Shown piece after piece: positions 2 through 5,837 of a stretch of DNA of 64,000 bases (its first letter is position 1; each line of letters begins with the position of its first letter). The stretch covers positions 1-64,000 of the forward strand of contig SVPX01000001.1 in NCBI GenBank assembly GCA_015065665.1, written 5' to 3'. The position numbers and the translations under genes were made by a program. This DNA comes from Oscillospiraceae bacterium. Its GTDB lineage: Bacteria > Bacillota > Clostridia > Oscillospirales > Acutalibacteraceae. The notes below the pieces were generated by a model. The model saw only the letters and a program-made list of their open reading frames with translations. It was not told the DNA's origin and made no database searches.

Positions 2-793
2 CTTGAGCATCTTGATAAAGTTATCAATATTGACCAGAGTCCCATCGGCAGGACTCCCCGCAGTAACCCTGCCACATATACAGGAATGTTTACCGATATC
101 CGTGACCTTTTTGCAAAGACTCAGGAGGCTAAACTGCGAGGTTTCAGCTCAGGTCGTTTCTCCTTTAATGTCAAGGGTGGTCGTTGTGAGGCTTGTGAGG
201 GCGGCGGTATCGTCAAGATTGAGATGCACTTTCTGCCCGATGTTTATGTGCCTTGTGATGTGTGCAAGGGCAGACGATATAACAGAGAAACCCTTGAGGT
301 CAAGTATAAAGGCAAGTCTATCTACGATGTGCTTGAGATGACGGTTGAAGAGGGTCTTGAATTCTTCCAGAGTATCCCCAAGATTCACCGCAGACTCCAG
401 ACTCTCTACGAAGTTGGTCTGGGATATATCAAGATAGGACAGGCGGCAACTACCCTTTCAGGCGGTGAGGCTCAGAGAGTAAAGCTTGCCACAGAACTTT
501 CTCGCCGCAGTACAGGTAAGACAGTATACATCCTTGACGAACCTACAACAGGTCTTCATTCTGCAGATGTGCATCGCCTTATCGATGTGCTTCAGCGTCT
601 TGTGGATAAGGGCAACAGCGTTATTGTTATCGAGCATAACCTTGATCTTATCAAGACTGCTGACTATGTAATTGATTTAGGTCCCGAGGGTGGAGACGGT
701 GGCGGAGAGATTGTTGCACAAGGTACTCCCGAGGAGATTGCTCAGTGTGAAAAATCCTACACAGGTCACTTCCTGAGAAAAATTCTCAAATAA
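2..793 (+). CDS. uvrA: Excinuclease ABC subunit A (UvrA), C-terminal part, 5' end outside window
   Basis: Frame 2 is open from the window edge: [46 protein letters not shown] zinc motif; [15 protein letters not shown] signature; [11 protein letters not shown] Walker B. Confidence 0.97.
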
Positions 794-873: not shown

Positions 874-2307
874 ATGATTACTATTCTGAATGGAAAACTT
901 ACCATTCCCGAGTCTGAGCGATTTATCGGTTTTGCAGGGGATAACCTCAGACGAACTGTAAACTTTTTAATCAGTGGTGCCTCTGAGGCAGACCACATCT
1001 ACCGTCTCTACCTTACCTTTGATGACGGTACAGTCAATTATTTTACTCTGCCTTCAACTGTTACAGACGAGGGTGTTGTGCTTACCTGGAATGTACTTAT
1101 AGAGCATATCTTTATGAGTGGTTCGGTTAAGGTACAAATCAAGGCTTTTTCTCACAAAGGCGTGGTATATCATACCACTACCGACAGATTCTTTGTGGGG
1201 GATAGTGCTGAATTTTCCGATTATTTCAGAAAACAGAATTCAGAGTTTCTTGAATATGAGAAGAAACTTAATAATCTCAGAGAGTCTGTGTCTGATATCT
1301 GTGTGCTGATGCCTTTTGTTGGTGACAACGGTAACTGGTATATATATGATGCGGATTCGGGAGAATACAAGGACAGCGGTAAGCCCTCTGTAGGTCTTGT
1401 TGATAACCTGTATGTTAAAACAGATATGATTGAAGATAGTGCCGTAACAGGTGACAAGATTGCATCTGATTCAGTTGATTATAATCATCTGAAAGATATG
1501 TCAGTAACACCTGAAAAGTTAGACAGGGAGTATGTCAGATTGCATCAATCAGGTGTCGGAAGTGCAATTCGTTCTGAATCACAATTTCATAATTATCTTG
1601 TTACCGGTACAGCAAATGAAATTGATGAGTTAGAGAAATTCAGAAAAATCTGTATGTTTTCTGTGGGAGCAACAGATGGTGTTCTTTCTGTTATTGGTAC
1701 GGGCAGGTTTTATGGTTTCTATATTTCAAAATCAGCTTTTACTTTTACAAGATTAGGTGTTAATCCTCAAACATTCCTTGCGCTGTGGAACGCTGAAAAA
1801 ATTACTTCAATTGAACTTGTTGGAGACAACGCTGTTGCAGACCAGAGTTATATCCCCACAAGCGAGAACGCGCAGAGCGGTATTGCAGTTAATGAGGCTT
1901 TTGAGATTTTCAAGGAACAGTATCAGCAAATCAAAAATGTAACTCTTCAGGAAATTTCATATATGGCTCTTTTGGAACAATTAAAAACTTTCGGTGCTAT
2001 AAGATTTAACACAGGGGGCCAGGACTTTACAGGTTCGTCAACAGATTTAAACCTGCCGAGGGGCGAATATTTGGCTTTCTATAATGGGGCAAGTTCTTAC
2101 TGTTTAGAACTTACTTCGGCTATTGCGTATAGATTCAGTGGACATGACTTGTTCGATACAGGAGAATACACTTTTAGTGTGAGCAGTCCTCTTTGGGAAA
2201 CACAGACGAACCTTTCTAAGCTTTTTCGTTCTCTTGGTGATATTGACACCGCCCTTGATAACATCATAGCAACTCAAGAAAGTTATATCGGAGGTGTTTC
2301 TGAATGA
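874..2307 (+). CDS. Phage baseplate upper protein-like (BppU N-terminal-like) structural protein
   Basis: N-terminus MITILNGKLTIPESERFIGFAGDNLRRTVNFLISG..YRLYLTFDDGTVNYF resembles BppU-type N-terminal domains; followed by tail and lysis genes. Confidence 0.65.
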   Translation: MITILNGKLTIPESERFIGFAGDNLRRTVNFLISGASEADHIYRLYLTFDDGTVNYFTLPSTVTDEGVVLTWNVLIEHIFMSGSVKVQIKAFSHKGVVYHTTTDRFFVGDSAEFSDYFRKQNSEFLEYEKKLNNLRESVSDICVLMPFVGDNGNWYIYDADSGEYKDSGKPSVGLVDNLYVKTDMIEDSAVTGDKIASDSVDYNHLKDMSVTPEKLDREYVRLHQSGVGSAIRSESQFHNYLVTGTANEIDELEKFRKICMFSVGATDGVLSVIGTGRFYGFYISKSAFTFTRLGVNPQTFLALWNAEKITSIELVGDNAVADQSYIPTSENAQSGIAVNEAFEIFKEQYQQIKNVTLQEISYMALLEQLKTFGAIRFNTGGQDFTGSSTDLNLPRGEYLAFYNGASSYCLELTSAIAYRFSGHDLFDTGEYTFSVSSPLWETQTNLSKLFRSLGDIDTALDNIIATQESYIGGVSE

Positions 2308-2993
2308 GTACAGCCGATAAACTTGTAACTGTTGCAGAGAATGTAGATAAAGTCTATAACGCAGGCTATGAAGCTGGCAAGGCTGAGGGCGATGGTTTGC
2401 CTGCTGAATTTGAGTGGGCGAAACATACCATTAACAAACCCTTGTTCAACGATGATAGTTGGGCAACAGAAAACACTGTGATATATATGCCTAATGTCAG
2501 CAATATATCTGAGATTTTCTATAACAAGAACCTCACAAAGATTAAAACATTAACCGTCAAAACAGATGTTCCTGTTACTAATGCGAATTACTTTTTAAAA
2601 GCGCAAAACAATGTGAGCTACGCTTTCCTTGAAAAGCTCATTCTCGAATGTGATTTCTCACAATGTGATAATTTTAGTCAGTTCTTACAGTTTCAGAGAA
2701 AACTTGTATCAATCGAGGGACAGCCACTTAATCTATCAAGTGCTGTTTCTTTCAACTTTAGTTATTTGGAGGCTTTAGAAAGTTTTCGTGTGGAGAGAGA
2801 AACGATAAAAGTTGATTTTTATGTTGCTGCGTCATCTAATCTTGATAGTGAAACTATACAAAGCATTGTTGACGGTTTGGCAGATTTGACAGGCGGAGAT
2901 GCGAAAACTTTAATACTTCACTCAACTGTTAAAGGAAAACTTACAGAAACACAACTTGCCACAATCACAGGCAAGAATTGGACTGTAGCGTAA
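2304..2993 (+). CDS. Phage tail-associated hypothetical protein
   Basis: Overlaps the upstream stop (ATGA); C-terminus DGLADLTGGDAKTLILHSTVKGKLTETQLATITGKNWTVA is typical of clostridial phage tail proteins. Confidence 0.6.
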   Translation: MSTADKLVTVAENVDKVYNAGYEAGKAEGDGLPAEFEWAKHTINKPLFNDDSWATENTVIYMPNVSNISEIFYNKNLTKIKTLTVKTDVPVTNANYFLKAQNNVSYAFLEKLILECDFSQCDNFSQFLQFQRKLVSIEGQPLNLSSAVSFNFSYLEALESFRVERETIKVDFYVAASSNLDSETIQSIVDGLADLTGGDAKTLILHSTVKGKLTETQLATITGKNWTVA

Positions 2994-3004
2994 GGGGGCT
3001 TTTT

Positions 3005-3265
3005 ATGAAGATCGAAATCATAAACGGAATAAGAGTTATCACCCCTGATGCAGGAATGTTCCTGTATAAAACGGCTGACCGAATAATCAGCGATAAAGTC
3101 TTTCTTGGTGTAGGTGACACGGAATCAGGTTGGGCTGAAATCACAGAGGAAAGAAAAGCGGAGCTTGAAACTTTGTGGGAATCAGAAAATAACCCTGAAA
3201 ATGTGGCAACTGATGCTGATTATATTAACGCTCTTGAAAGTCTGGGGGTGCAGTTCAATGAATAA
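3005..3265 (+). CDS. Small phage-type hypothetical protein
   Basis: ATG at 3005 after an aaggggg RBS; 86 aa; lies within the tail/lysis cassette. Confidence 0.6.
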   Translation: MKIEIINGIRVITPDAGMFLYKTADRIISDKVFLGVGDTESGWAEITEERKAELETLWESENNPENVATDADYINALESLGVQFNE

Positions 3266-3437
3266 ATCTGCATTGAATGAGGCTGTAAACCTCTGCAAAG
3301 AAACAACAAGAGAGGCTTTGCAAACGGTGTACGACTCTCTTAATCAAGGTCAGCAGAAAAAGCTGATTAAAGACGAAAAAGTAAAAGCATTATTTGATTT
3401 GTTTGAAGTGAATTACGATGCTCAGAAAAAAGGCTAA
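3258..3437 (+). CDS. Small hypothetical protein of the phage cassette
   Basis: ATG at 3258 overlaps the upstream gene end; MNKSALNEAVNLCKETTREALQTVYDSLNQGQQKKLIKDEKVKALFDLFEVNYDAQKKG (59 aa). Confidence 0.55.
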   Translation: MNKSALNEAVNLCKETTREALQTVYDSLNQGQQKKLIKDEKVKALFDLFEVNYDAQKKG

Positions 3438-3457
3438 ACGATAGGAGAAATTATAAT

Positions 3458-4396
3458 ATGGCAAATATAAAATGTGTTGATGTTTCTGAGTGGCAGGGAA
3501 ATATAGACTGGAAAAAGGTGTACAAGGCAGGGTATACCTGTGCTATCCTCAGAGCAGGTTTCGGACGTTATGCATCTCAGAAGGATAAGTGTTTTGACGC
3601 AAACTATAAGAACGCAAAGGCGGCAGGTGTCAGACTGGGTGCATACTGGTACTCCTATGCAGTTGATAAAGCGGATGCTATTAAAGAGGCGAAAGCCTGT
3701 ATCTCAATCCTTAAGGGTAAGTCTTTTGAGTTGCCTGTATTCTTTGATATGGAAGAGAATTCTATGAAGAAACTTGGTAAGAAGACACTTACTGAAATGG
3801 CAAAAGCGTTCTGTGATACTCTTAAAAGTGCAGGATATAGGGCAGGTGTATACAGTAATCTGGATTGGTTTACAAACTATCTTGATTATAATTCCTTAAA
3901 GAAACTTTATCCCATCTGGTATGCACAGTATTACAAGGAAGCACAGATGGATTGTGATATCTGGCAGTATTCAAGCACAGGTAAAGTCAGTGGTATAAGC
4001 GGCAATGTTGATATGAATATTATTTATAATTCCTCTGTGATAAAGTCTGAAGAAGCAAAAACTACTCAGACAGAGAAGAAAGAGGAAACACCTCTCCTCG
4101 AAACTGCTGCTTTACAGGTTTTGCTCAGAATTGCGTTGGATTTAAAGGTAGTCAAGACTAATGTTACCCCTGTTAACAACATAAAAGGCAGACTTACAAA
4201 TGCCGCTATAATCGAAGCAAGAGAGTTTATGGGATACAAGAATCCTACATCCGATGTTGATATGGATTTTATCTGCAGTCTTGATAAGGCTCTCAGAGAA
4301 AAACTGGCTCTTCTTGCATCGGGTGATGTAAACGGTGATGGTAAGGTTGATATCAAGGATGCCACACAGATTCAGAGAAAGGTGGCAGGATTTTAA
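3458..4396 (+). CDS. GH25 lysozyme (endolysin-like) with C-terminal single dockerin-type repeat
   Basis: KCVDVSEWQGNIDWKKVYKAGYTCAILRAGFGRY; FFDMEEN; YRAGVYSNLDWF; DIWQYSSTG; C-terminus GDVNGDGKVDIKDATQIQRKVAGF. Confidence 0.9.
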   Translation: MANIKCVDVSEWQGNIDWKKVYKAGYTCAILRAGFGRYASQKDKCFDANYKNAKAAGVRLGAYWYSYAVDKADAIKEAKACISILKGKSFELPVFFDMEENSMKKLGKKTLTEMAKAFCDTLKSAGYRAGVYSNLDWFTNYLDYNSLKKLYPIWYAQYYKEAQMDCDIWQYSSTGKVSGISGNVDMNIIYNSSVIKSEEAKTTQTEKKEETPLLETAALQVLLRIALDLKVVKTNVTPVNNIKGRLTNAAIIEAREFMGYKNPTSDVDMDFICSLDKALREKLALLASGDVNGDGKVDIKDATQIQRKVAGF

Positions 4397-4397
4397 G

Positions 4398-4865
4398 ATG
4401 TTATCAAAGTTGTTTGTTTCGTTTCTCAGCGGTCTTTCTCTTCAGAAAATTACCTTTGCCTCAGTAATTGCAGGTGTAGGCGGTTTTGCAGCTTGGTTTC
4501 TTGGGGGCTGGGATACTCTGATTATCTGTTACATAACTCTCATGGTGATTGACTATCTCACAGGGGTTGCAAAGGCAATCTATCAGAAAAAACTTTCAAG
4601 CAAAACAGGTTTCAGAGGAATACTCAAGAAACTCCTTGCAATCTGTGTGATAGGTCTTTCGGTTTCTTTGCAGAATATTTTGCCTGAGGCTGTGCCTCTC
4701 AGAGAAGTCACCGTGCTTTTCTTTATTGCAAACGAAGGCTTTTCTATTCTTGAAAACGCAGACGGACTTATTCCTTTGCCCGAGAAACTCCGCAGTGTAC
4801 TGTATCAGATTCAGGATAAAGCACAGAACGAGGAAAATAAAAAGGATAATTCAGACGCAGACTAA
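4398..4865 (+). CDS. Phage holin family protein
   Basis: ATG at 4398; ITLMVIDYLTGVAKAIYQKKLSSKTGFRGILKK holin signature; follows the lysin. Confidence 0.88.
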   Translation: MLSKLFVSFLSGLSLQKITFASVIAGVGGFAAWFLGGWDTLIICYITLMVIDYLTGVAKAIYQKKLSSKTGFRGILKKLLAICVIGLSVSLQNILPEAVPLREVTVLFFIANEGFSILENADGLIPLPEKLRSVLYQIQDKAQNEENKKDNSDAD

Positions 4866-4889: not shown

Positions 4890-4929
4890 CAAAGGCGGAA
4901 GTATGATGAAACATACCTCTGCCTTTTGT
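4890..4929. terminator. Terminator-like hairpin between holin and thyX
   Basis: caaaggcggaagtatg-atgaaa-catacctctgccttttg palindrome. Confidence 0.55.
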
Positions 4930-5030
4930 TGATTTTTGTATTTCATTGTGTTATAATATATCAGTATAATGCTATAATTGTGACTAATTGCAGATTTACT
5001 GCAAATCTATCAATAAAGGAGAGGGATACA

Positions 5031-5837
5031 ATGGCTATTAAAGTGACACTTCTTGCACATACTCCAAGTCCCGAGGAGATTGTTGCCGCAGCGGCAAAAC
5101 TCTGTTATTCACCTTCCTCAATAGAGAATATCCGTGAAGGTCTTACCGAGGAGAAAACAGCATCTTTTGTTAAGATGCTCAGCGATATGGGCCACGCAAG
5201 TCCCACCGAACACGCATCATTTACCTTTGGTATAGAGGGTATATCCCGCGCTTGTTCACATCAGCTTGTTCGTCATCGTATTGCCTCTTACAGTCAGCAG
5301 TCCCAGCGATATGTTGATGGCAACAGCTTTGAGTTTGTAACTCCTCCTGAGATTATGGATGACGAGCATTGCCTTGATGTTTACAATCAGGTTATAGATA
5401 TGCAGATGAAGGCATATTCTGATATCCGCGATGCCCTTGCTGTTAAGTATATCCGTGAGTTTTCAGATAAGGAATACACAGGCACAGATGCAGACATCAT
5501 AGAGGCTTTCAAGGCTCAAAACAAAGCACAATGCTCTGTGTTTATCAAGAAAGCTAACGAGGATGCCCGTTACATCCTGCCCAATGCCTGTACAACAAAG
5601 ATTGTTTGCACATTCAATGCAAGAAGCCTTGAGAACTTCTTTGCTCACCGTTGTTGCAACCGCGCACAGTGGGAGATAAGAGAAGTTGCCCAGCAGATGC
5701 TTCTTATCTGCAAAGAGGTTGCTCCCAATATCTTTGCTAAGAGCGGTCCCTCTTGTATGAGAGGTGCTTGTCCCGAGGGTGGTATGACCTGCGGTAAAAT
5801 TAAGGAAGTAAGAGAAAAATACGGATATGGAAAATAA
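5031..5837 (+). CDS. thyX: FAD-dependent thymidylate synthase ThyX
   Basis: RHRIASYSQQSQRYV matches the ThyX motif RHRxxSxxxxSxR; ATG at 5031 after an aaaggagagg RBS. Confidence 0.96.
   Translation: MAIKVTLLAHTPSPEEIVAAAAKLCYSPSSIENIREGLTEEKTASFVKMLSDMGHASPTEHASFTFGIEGISRACSHQLVRHRIASYSQQSQRYVDGNSFEFVTPPEIMDDEHCLDVYNQVIDMQMKAYSDIRDALAVKYIREFSDKEYTGTDADIIEAFKAQNKAQCSVFIKKANEDARYILPNACTTKIVCTFNARSLENFFAHRCCNRAQWEIREVAQQMLLICKEVAPNIFAKSGPSCMRGACPEGGMTCGKIKEVREKYGYGK

Follow-up and report, generated by a model that had tools for sequence, protein, structure and literature searches.

Normal dockerins consist of two F-hand-like calcium-binding repeats packed with two-fold symmetry, and in the lysis cassettes of PBSX-like cryptic prophages a tail fibre, an XhlA-like protein, a lysin and a holin follow one another in this order. 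The group-2 dockerins of R. flavefaciens have a single repeat at the C-terminus (PMC2930009), and these short (half) dockerins bind the cohesins of ScaE and ScaH with a Ka of 1e6-1e7 per M as determined by ITC (PMC5301203; the precedent also draws on PMC5934362). The parents of the tested half-dockerins were an LRR protein and an unknown protein, and the group-4 dockerins of R. flavefaciens are characterized by a Gly-Arg recognition pair (PMC5301203). Dockerin-bearing lysozymes of ruminococcal cellulosomes, the “lyticome” of R. champanellensis, are cited in PMC6403190. A search of 5.39 million open-access papers brought up no description of a phage endolysin that bears a dockerin. While half-dockerins and host dockerin lysozymes are both known, their host-matched and conserved combination on phage lysins appears to be new.

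Here, we describe a GH25 endolysin with a C-terminal half-dockerin that is encoded, together with a holin, between uvrA and thyX in the window, i.e., the whole stretch of 64,000 nucleotides that was analysed (Table 1).

Table 1. Features of the lysin locus, with positions in the window
Feature	Positions	Strand	Basis
3' end of uvrA, upstream flank	86..793	+	named from ORF sequence; Pfam ABC_tran; flank conserved in other species
Tail-fibre-like protein, N-terminus conserved, C-terminus variable	874..2307	+	PHROG 25888, tail-fibre PHROG 892
Second cassette gene, varies among species	2304..2993	+	ORF
Small cassette ORF, no family match	3005..3265	+	ORF
Small cassette ORF, no family match	3258..3437	+	ORF
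GH25 endolysin with C-terminal half-dockerin, 312 aa	3458..4396	+	ORF; PHROG 291; Pfam GH25; 17 full-length homologues
GH25 catalytic domain, residues 7-180, D97 and E99 (DxE) invariant	3476..3997	+	Pfam; AlphaFold/Foldseek
Helical middle domain, residues 212-285, divergent PG_binding_1-like	4091..4312	+	model helices; homologues; G016 amidase
Half-dockerin, one F-hand calcium-binding repeat, GDVNGDGKVDIKDATQIQRKVAGF	4322..4393	+	Pfam; invariant ligands in 18 lysins
Phage holin (Phage_holin_4_1)	4398..4865	+	Pfam 4.1e-34; PHROG 199
thyX, downstream flank	4926..5837	+	Pfam Thy1 4.1e-72

The lysin belongs to the PHROG 291 endolysins (E 3.4e-58) and contains a complete GH25 domain (Pfam 3.8e-34, 1-180/180) in which both catalytic acids are invariant. 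Its N-terminus, MANIKCVDVSEWQG, leads directly into this domain without a signal peptide, and the holin starts 1 bp past the lysin stop. With a whole GH25 domain, a surrounding lysis cassette and no signal peptide, the protein is a GH25 phage endolysin. A host cellulosomal lysozyme was rejected as an identity, for which a signal peptide and a full dockerin would be expected, and both are absent from the lysin. The GH25 part of the AlphaFold model matched phage and autolysin GH25 structures in Foldseek, and the matches of this structure search were confined to that part. The middle domain is modelled with helices at residues 213-228, 248-257 and 269-289, and its likeness to PG_binding_1 is drawn from homologues and from a phage-type amidase of another genus (G016, discussed below), in which Pfam calls this domain.

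The lysin ends in SGDVNGDGKVDIKDATQIQRKVAGF, the last 24 residues of which (289-312) form the terminal repeat with a complete calcium loop, D-x-N-x-D-G-x-V-x3-D; an equivalent loop arose in 3 of 20,000 composition-preserving shuffles of the protein. Pfam Dockerin_1 (PF00404) aligns to the repeat at profile positions 2-22 of 57 only, scoring 21.2 bits with the protein (hmmscan) and 23.7 bits in the genome scan at a cut-off of 22.9. The AlphaFold model places a helix at residues 299-311 with low confidence (pLDDT about 48-69 over the repeat). The canonical calcium loop and the helix of type I dockerins (PF00404) are present, and no second repeat, not even a decayed one, was found downstream of the first in any frame. 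Because this defining second repeat is absent, we classify the sequence not as a dockerin but as a half-dockerin-like repeat carried by a GH25 endolysin. It shares the single C-terminal repeat with the R. flavefaciens group-2 type and lacks the latter's kinship to the Gly-Arg group-4 dockerins, having Ile-Lys at the place of Gly-Arg, as do the dockerins of its own host. An earlier note on this DNA had described one F-hand repeat, half a dockerin, within positions 4318-4396 at the end of a phage-type lysin, which agrees with the GH25/PHROG 291 assignment, the one repeat and the adjoining holin. The special likeness to the second repeats of the dockerins at 10.4, 15.5 and 47.5 kb that it also claimed disappears on comparison, since first and second repeats match equally: over 23 residues, the lysin repeat shares 11, 10 and 14 identities with the respective first repeats and 12 with each of the second, and it scores 57.8 bits on the profile of host first repeats and 58.3 bits on that of second repeats.

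Homologues of the lysin were sought by family and by protein in 161 genomes of the genus. Sixteen further loci in 13 genomes align to it over essentially its whole length at 52-70% identity, and an IMG/VR phage contig (L112) encodes a full-length homologue with 54% identity. Exactly one terminal repeat is present in all 17 homologues as in the window, i.e., in 18 of 18 lysins, although the IMG/VR copy hardly differs from one of the copies in G360 and does not count as independent of it. This recurrence rules out a one-off fusion or an assembly artefact. A further match over residues 1-312 in G109 combines a signal-like N-terminus, a full dockerin and GH25; it is probably a host enzyme and was left out of the counts. 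Conservation, expressed as the share of the majority residue among the 18 lysins, reaches 0.76 in GH25 and 0.75 in the half-dockerin as against 0.57 in the middle domain. For GH25, middle domain and half-dockerin, dN/dS in close pairs is 0.148, 0.174 and 0.115, respectively, the last value coming from 96 codon comparisons in four pairs, three of which are not independent. The half-dockerin is conserved as well as the catalytic domain and is under purifying selection.

Within the repeat, D1, N3, D5, G6, D12, Q17 and A21 do not vary among the 18 lysins. With calcium ligands among the most conserved positions, and with an EF-hand-like calcium site controlling another lysin, LysGH15 (PMC4022735), the repeat might merely be a structural calcium site that stabilises or cation-gates the middle domain and has no partner. 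We regard this as distinctly improbable, as the repeat remains constant while the middle domain of the homologues comes in two types, with both of which it is kept, and as a related middle domain occurs without it (L329). Moreover, Q17 and A21 are helix positions beyond the ligands and agree with those of the host dockerins. The lysin of G322, encoded at the same chromosomal site, has a quite different C-terminus with KWLP-type repeats (L325), and the C-terminal end therefore behaves as a swappable targeting module. On contig C69 of the window's own genome, a decayed second module of middle domain and half-dockerin (L069, positions 3194-3505, minus strand) ends in GDYNGDGEVNIKDATAIQKHIAGLE; the frames upstream of it are broken.

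Single terminal repeats are also found on other lysins. A phage-type amidase with PG_binding_1 in G016, a genome of genus g17, ends in one repeat and has a holin-like ORF upstream. Calcium-loop pattern scans of IMG/VR returned at least the following viral matches (a scan queried with the lysin itself returned none): among the matches listed, a single terminal repeat is carried by the GH25 lysins L122, L156, L196 and L213, by the GH25+CHAP lysins L138 and L202, the C-termini of which are nearly the same and not independent, and by L211, a protein with a coiled coil, and in each of these viral records the half-dockerin is the sole dockerin match. Full dockerins are found, again among the matches listed, on the viral lysins L129, L154, L163, L186 and L200, and two amidases of genus g70 (L083, L085) have a full dockerin after a PG_binding_1-like domain. 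L195 was left out of the half-dockerin set because its repeat is followed by an in-frame TAG and then by a complete second repeat. This TAG-interrupted, lysin-type dockerin (positions 4123-4293 of a viral record of 178,943 bp) possibly reflects TAG recoding in a large phage. Two amidases from other genera of the family (L105, L111) have a signal-like N-terminus and full N-terminal dockerins and are host-type wall hydrolases. A gene similar to Tad2 (Thoeris anti-defence 2) lies directly beside a half-dockerin lysin in L347 (positions 547-1074, Pfam PF11195, 4.9e-23), and Tad2-similar ORFs adjoin the lysin in the phage-like loci L346 and L112 as well.

Two observations would fit a functionless chance relic, left behind when the cassette recombined with a host dockerin gene: the DNA of the lysin repeat reaches 82% similarity to host dockerin repeats over 56 bp, and dockerins are abundant in the genome, with about 50 matches in a metagenome-assembled genome (MAG) that is 76.7% complete. 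Nevertheless, a repeat that is fixed in 18 lysins with a dN/dS of about 0.12, survives domain swaps and also sits on unrelated lysins is most improbably such a relic. The earlier note had suggested that the phage cassette recombined with host genes. Taken as a recent local event, this part of its interpretation, in contrast to the half-dockerin on a phage-type lysin, does not stand, because the same repeat is fixed under purifying selection in the lysins of 13 other genomes and a phage. The lysins probably acquired the repeat from host dockerins at an early date.

To which host's dockerins the repeats conform was assessed with two profiles, one built from 26 dockerins in the window's genome and the other from 28 in G016, which told the host repeats apart in 108 of 108 cases, each repeat being left out of its own profile. 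In the window's genus, 17 distinct lysin repeats and the decayed copy on C69 were compared, and 16 of these 18 half-dockerins score higher on the own-genus profile; the repeat of the G016 amidase reaches 62.9 bits on the profile of its own genus versus 34.3 bits on that of the window's genus. The genera differ at loop and helix positions, which read I-K-D-A-T-x-I in the window's genus and M-E-D-V-T-x-L in that of G016. The IMG/VR lysin on L112 very probably has its host in the window's genus, since a near-identical copy is present in G360 of that genus. This host match is informative on the origin of the repeat and on the features it retains, but does not demonstrate binding.

Candidate cohesin partners exist: the window's MAG, for which the lack of any cohesin had been named as fatal to a targeting role, encodes one, the only Pfam cohesin found there, in a lipoprotein of 243 residues (L001 on contig C96; 36.1 bits, lipobox). 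This lipoprotein also has a Thr/Glu-rich linker. Cohesins occur in 38 of 40 genus genomes, and several of those inspected in a sample sit on small proteins that have a signal peptide and, at the C-terminus, a membrane segment. Given the cohesin in the genome and in 38 of 40 relatives, the host signature of the repeat and the cohesin binding of R. flavefaciens half-dockerins, we favour cohesin targeting and consider it moderately likely that the repeat serves the lysin as a calcium-dependent targeting element directed at cohesins. The conserved, host-matched half-dockerin suggests that phages borrowed the docking system of their hosts, which would hold the lysin at the cell surface. Judged from the sequences, cohesin-targeted wall hydrolysis is the better of the two readings that had been offered for the fusion.

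In the proposed mechanism, the holin would pass the lysin through the membrane, after which the half-dockerin with calcium would attach to a cohesin at the surface of the host cell, in this genome the single-cohesin lipoprotein and in relatives also the single cohesins with a C-terminal membrane segment. The muramidase would thus be concentrated at the wall and kept on the debris of its own species, as has been proposed for other cell-wall-binding domains, and the cellulosome/amylosome docking system of the host would serve the phage as a cell-wall-binding domain. Several points speak against cohesin targeting. The Gly-Arg pair of the R. flavefaciens group-4 dockerins is missing from the repeat, a single repeat provides half of the fold that dockerins usually have and is modelled with low confidence, only a single cohesin is found in the 76.7% complete MAG, and the lysin works from inside the cell, where surface cohesins may be unreachable before the wall opens.

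Since a normal dockerin pairs two repeats symmetrically, a repeat that stands alone leaves the face for its partner exposed. Two lysin chains could accordingly pair their single repeats in a calcium-dependent manner into one complete, two-repeat dockerin-like fold, yielding a bivalent lysin that needs no cohesin. The lysin repeat opens like the first host repeats (G in 26 of 26 of these) and closes like the second (AG in 19 of 26), as a symmetric unit would, and the low AlphaFold confidence for the repeat in a single chain points the same way. Multimeric lysins have a precedent in the GH25 endolysin CTP1L, which, according to the title of PDB 5a6s, is regulated by a secondary translation product. 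Dimerisation alone, however, predicts neither residues specific to the host genus nor full dockerins at the same place in other lysins, and this main rival to cohesin targeting is rather unlikely. Dimerisation and cohesin binding are mutually compatible, and the former could be the way in which a half-dockerin makes a whole one.

The cassette (874-4865 in the window) comprises the tail-fibre-like protein, the lysin, the holin and, between fibre and lysin, two to three genes that are small or variable (three in the window). An intact prophage was rejected as its identity, with no integrase, terminase or capsid gene around the lysin between uvrA and thyX; the situation is similar in other species. 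Another 12 species of the genus share this arrangement (13 with the window), 10 of them with both flanks on one contig, while G391 and G378 are cut by contig ends. In G339, the site is empty, with about 170 bp from uvrA to thyX, and a similar mini-cassette with a related lysin is present on contig C58. The fibre N-terminus occurs in 94 of 161 genus genomes, and among the 30 best fibre matches, 22 immediately follow uvrA; one of these is in G074, whose thyX lies at another place. Pairwise distances computed for the lysin GH25 domain and for the fibre N-terminus track the thyX distances (Mantel r = 0.76 and 0.88, respectively, both p = 0.0005; thyX versus uvrA, for comparison, 0.78). As both follow thyX, the cassette is inherited mainly vertically and is best called domesticated: the window lysin is no longer part of a prophage and its cassette is held at one chromosomal site by vertical descent. 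Related lysins outside the uvrA site have phage-like surroundings in G360 (C18, C19) and G375 (C10). A zinc carboxypeptidase domain is found among the variable fibre C-termini and second genes (G339, L348), and the second-gene position in G323 and G333 is occupied by an endonuclease/exonuclease/phosphatase-family protein. With a tailocin in mind, tail genes were sought elsewhere; Pfam Sipho_tail was found in 0 of 21 genomes, which is a weak test because G322 gave no match either despite its phage-tail-like genes, including one for a protein of 1261 residues.

A broader scenario is possible, though we hold it only tentatively: phages of dockerin-rich gut bacteria may repeatedly use the cohesin-dockerin code of their hosts as the wall-binding domain of their endolysins, with a half-dockerin, perhaps completed by dimerisation, that would make capture on cohesins anchored to the membrane or wall both host-specific and calcium-dependent, and hosts may in turn have domesticated the fibre/lysin/holin cassette that follows uvrA. 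Should the repeat indeed bind cohesins of the host, the docking system of fibre and starch digestion would also serve phage lysis. This would add a new class of endolysin targeting domain, give the puzzling half-dockerins a role and provide a lead to narrow-range lysins against keystone gut bacteria. The vertically kept cassette raises the second question of why the host retains it.

Compared with the known systems, the lysin repeat resembles the group-2 half-dockerins of R. flavefaciens FD-1 in being one C-terminal calcium-binding repeat related to the full dockerins of the same organism. The tested parents of those half-dockerins are host LRR or unknown proteins instead of lysins, the half-dockerins derive from group-4 (type III) dockerins whereas the lysin repeat is type-I-like with the signature of another genus, and their binding to ScaE (a surface cohesin) and ScaH has been shown while the lysin repeat is known from sequence. 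Like the lyticome lysozymes, the lysin ties a cell-wall hydrolase to the cohesin-dockerin system; those enzymes are reported as components of host cellulosomes, whereas ours are phage endolysins with no signal peptide, an adjoining holin and a half-dockerin. The gene order of the window cassette resembles that of the PBSX-like cassettes, from which it differs in comprising the fibre and lysis end alone, at one site after uvrA and vertically inherited in 13 species. With the modular GH25 endolysins of PHROG 291, such as CTP1L, phiSM101 and Cpl-1, the lysin shares the N-terminal muramidase, the holin next door and a swapped, host-adapted C-terminal targeting domain (PMC9371310), but its terminal element is a half-dockerin, present besides a PG_binding-like domain.
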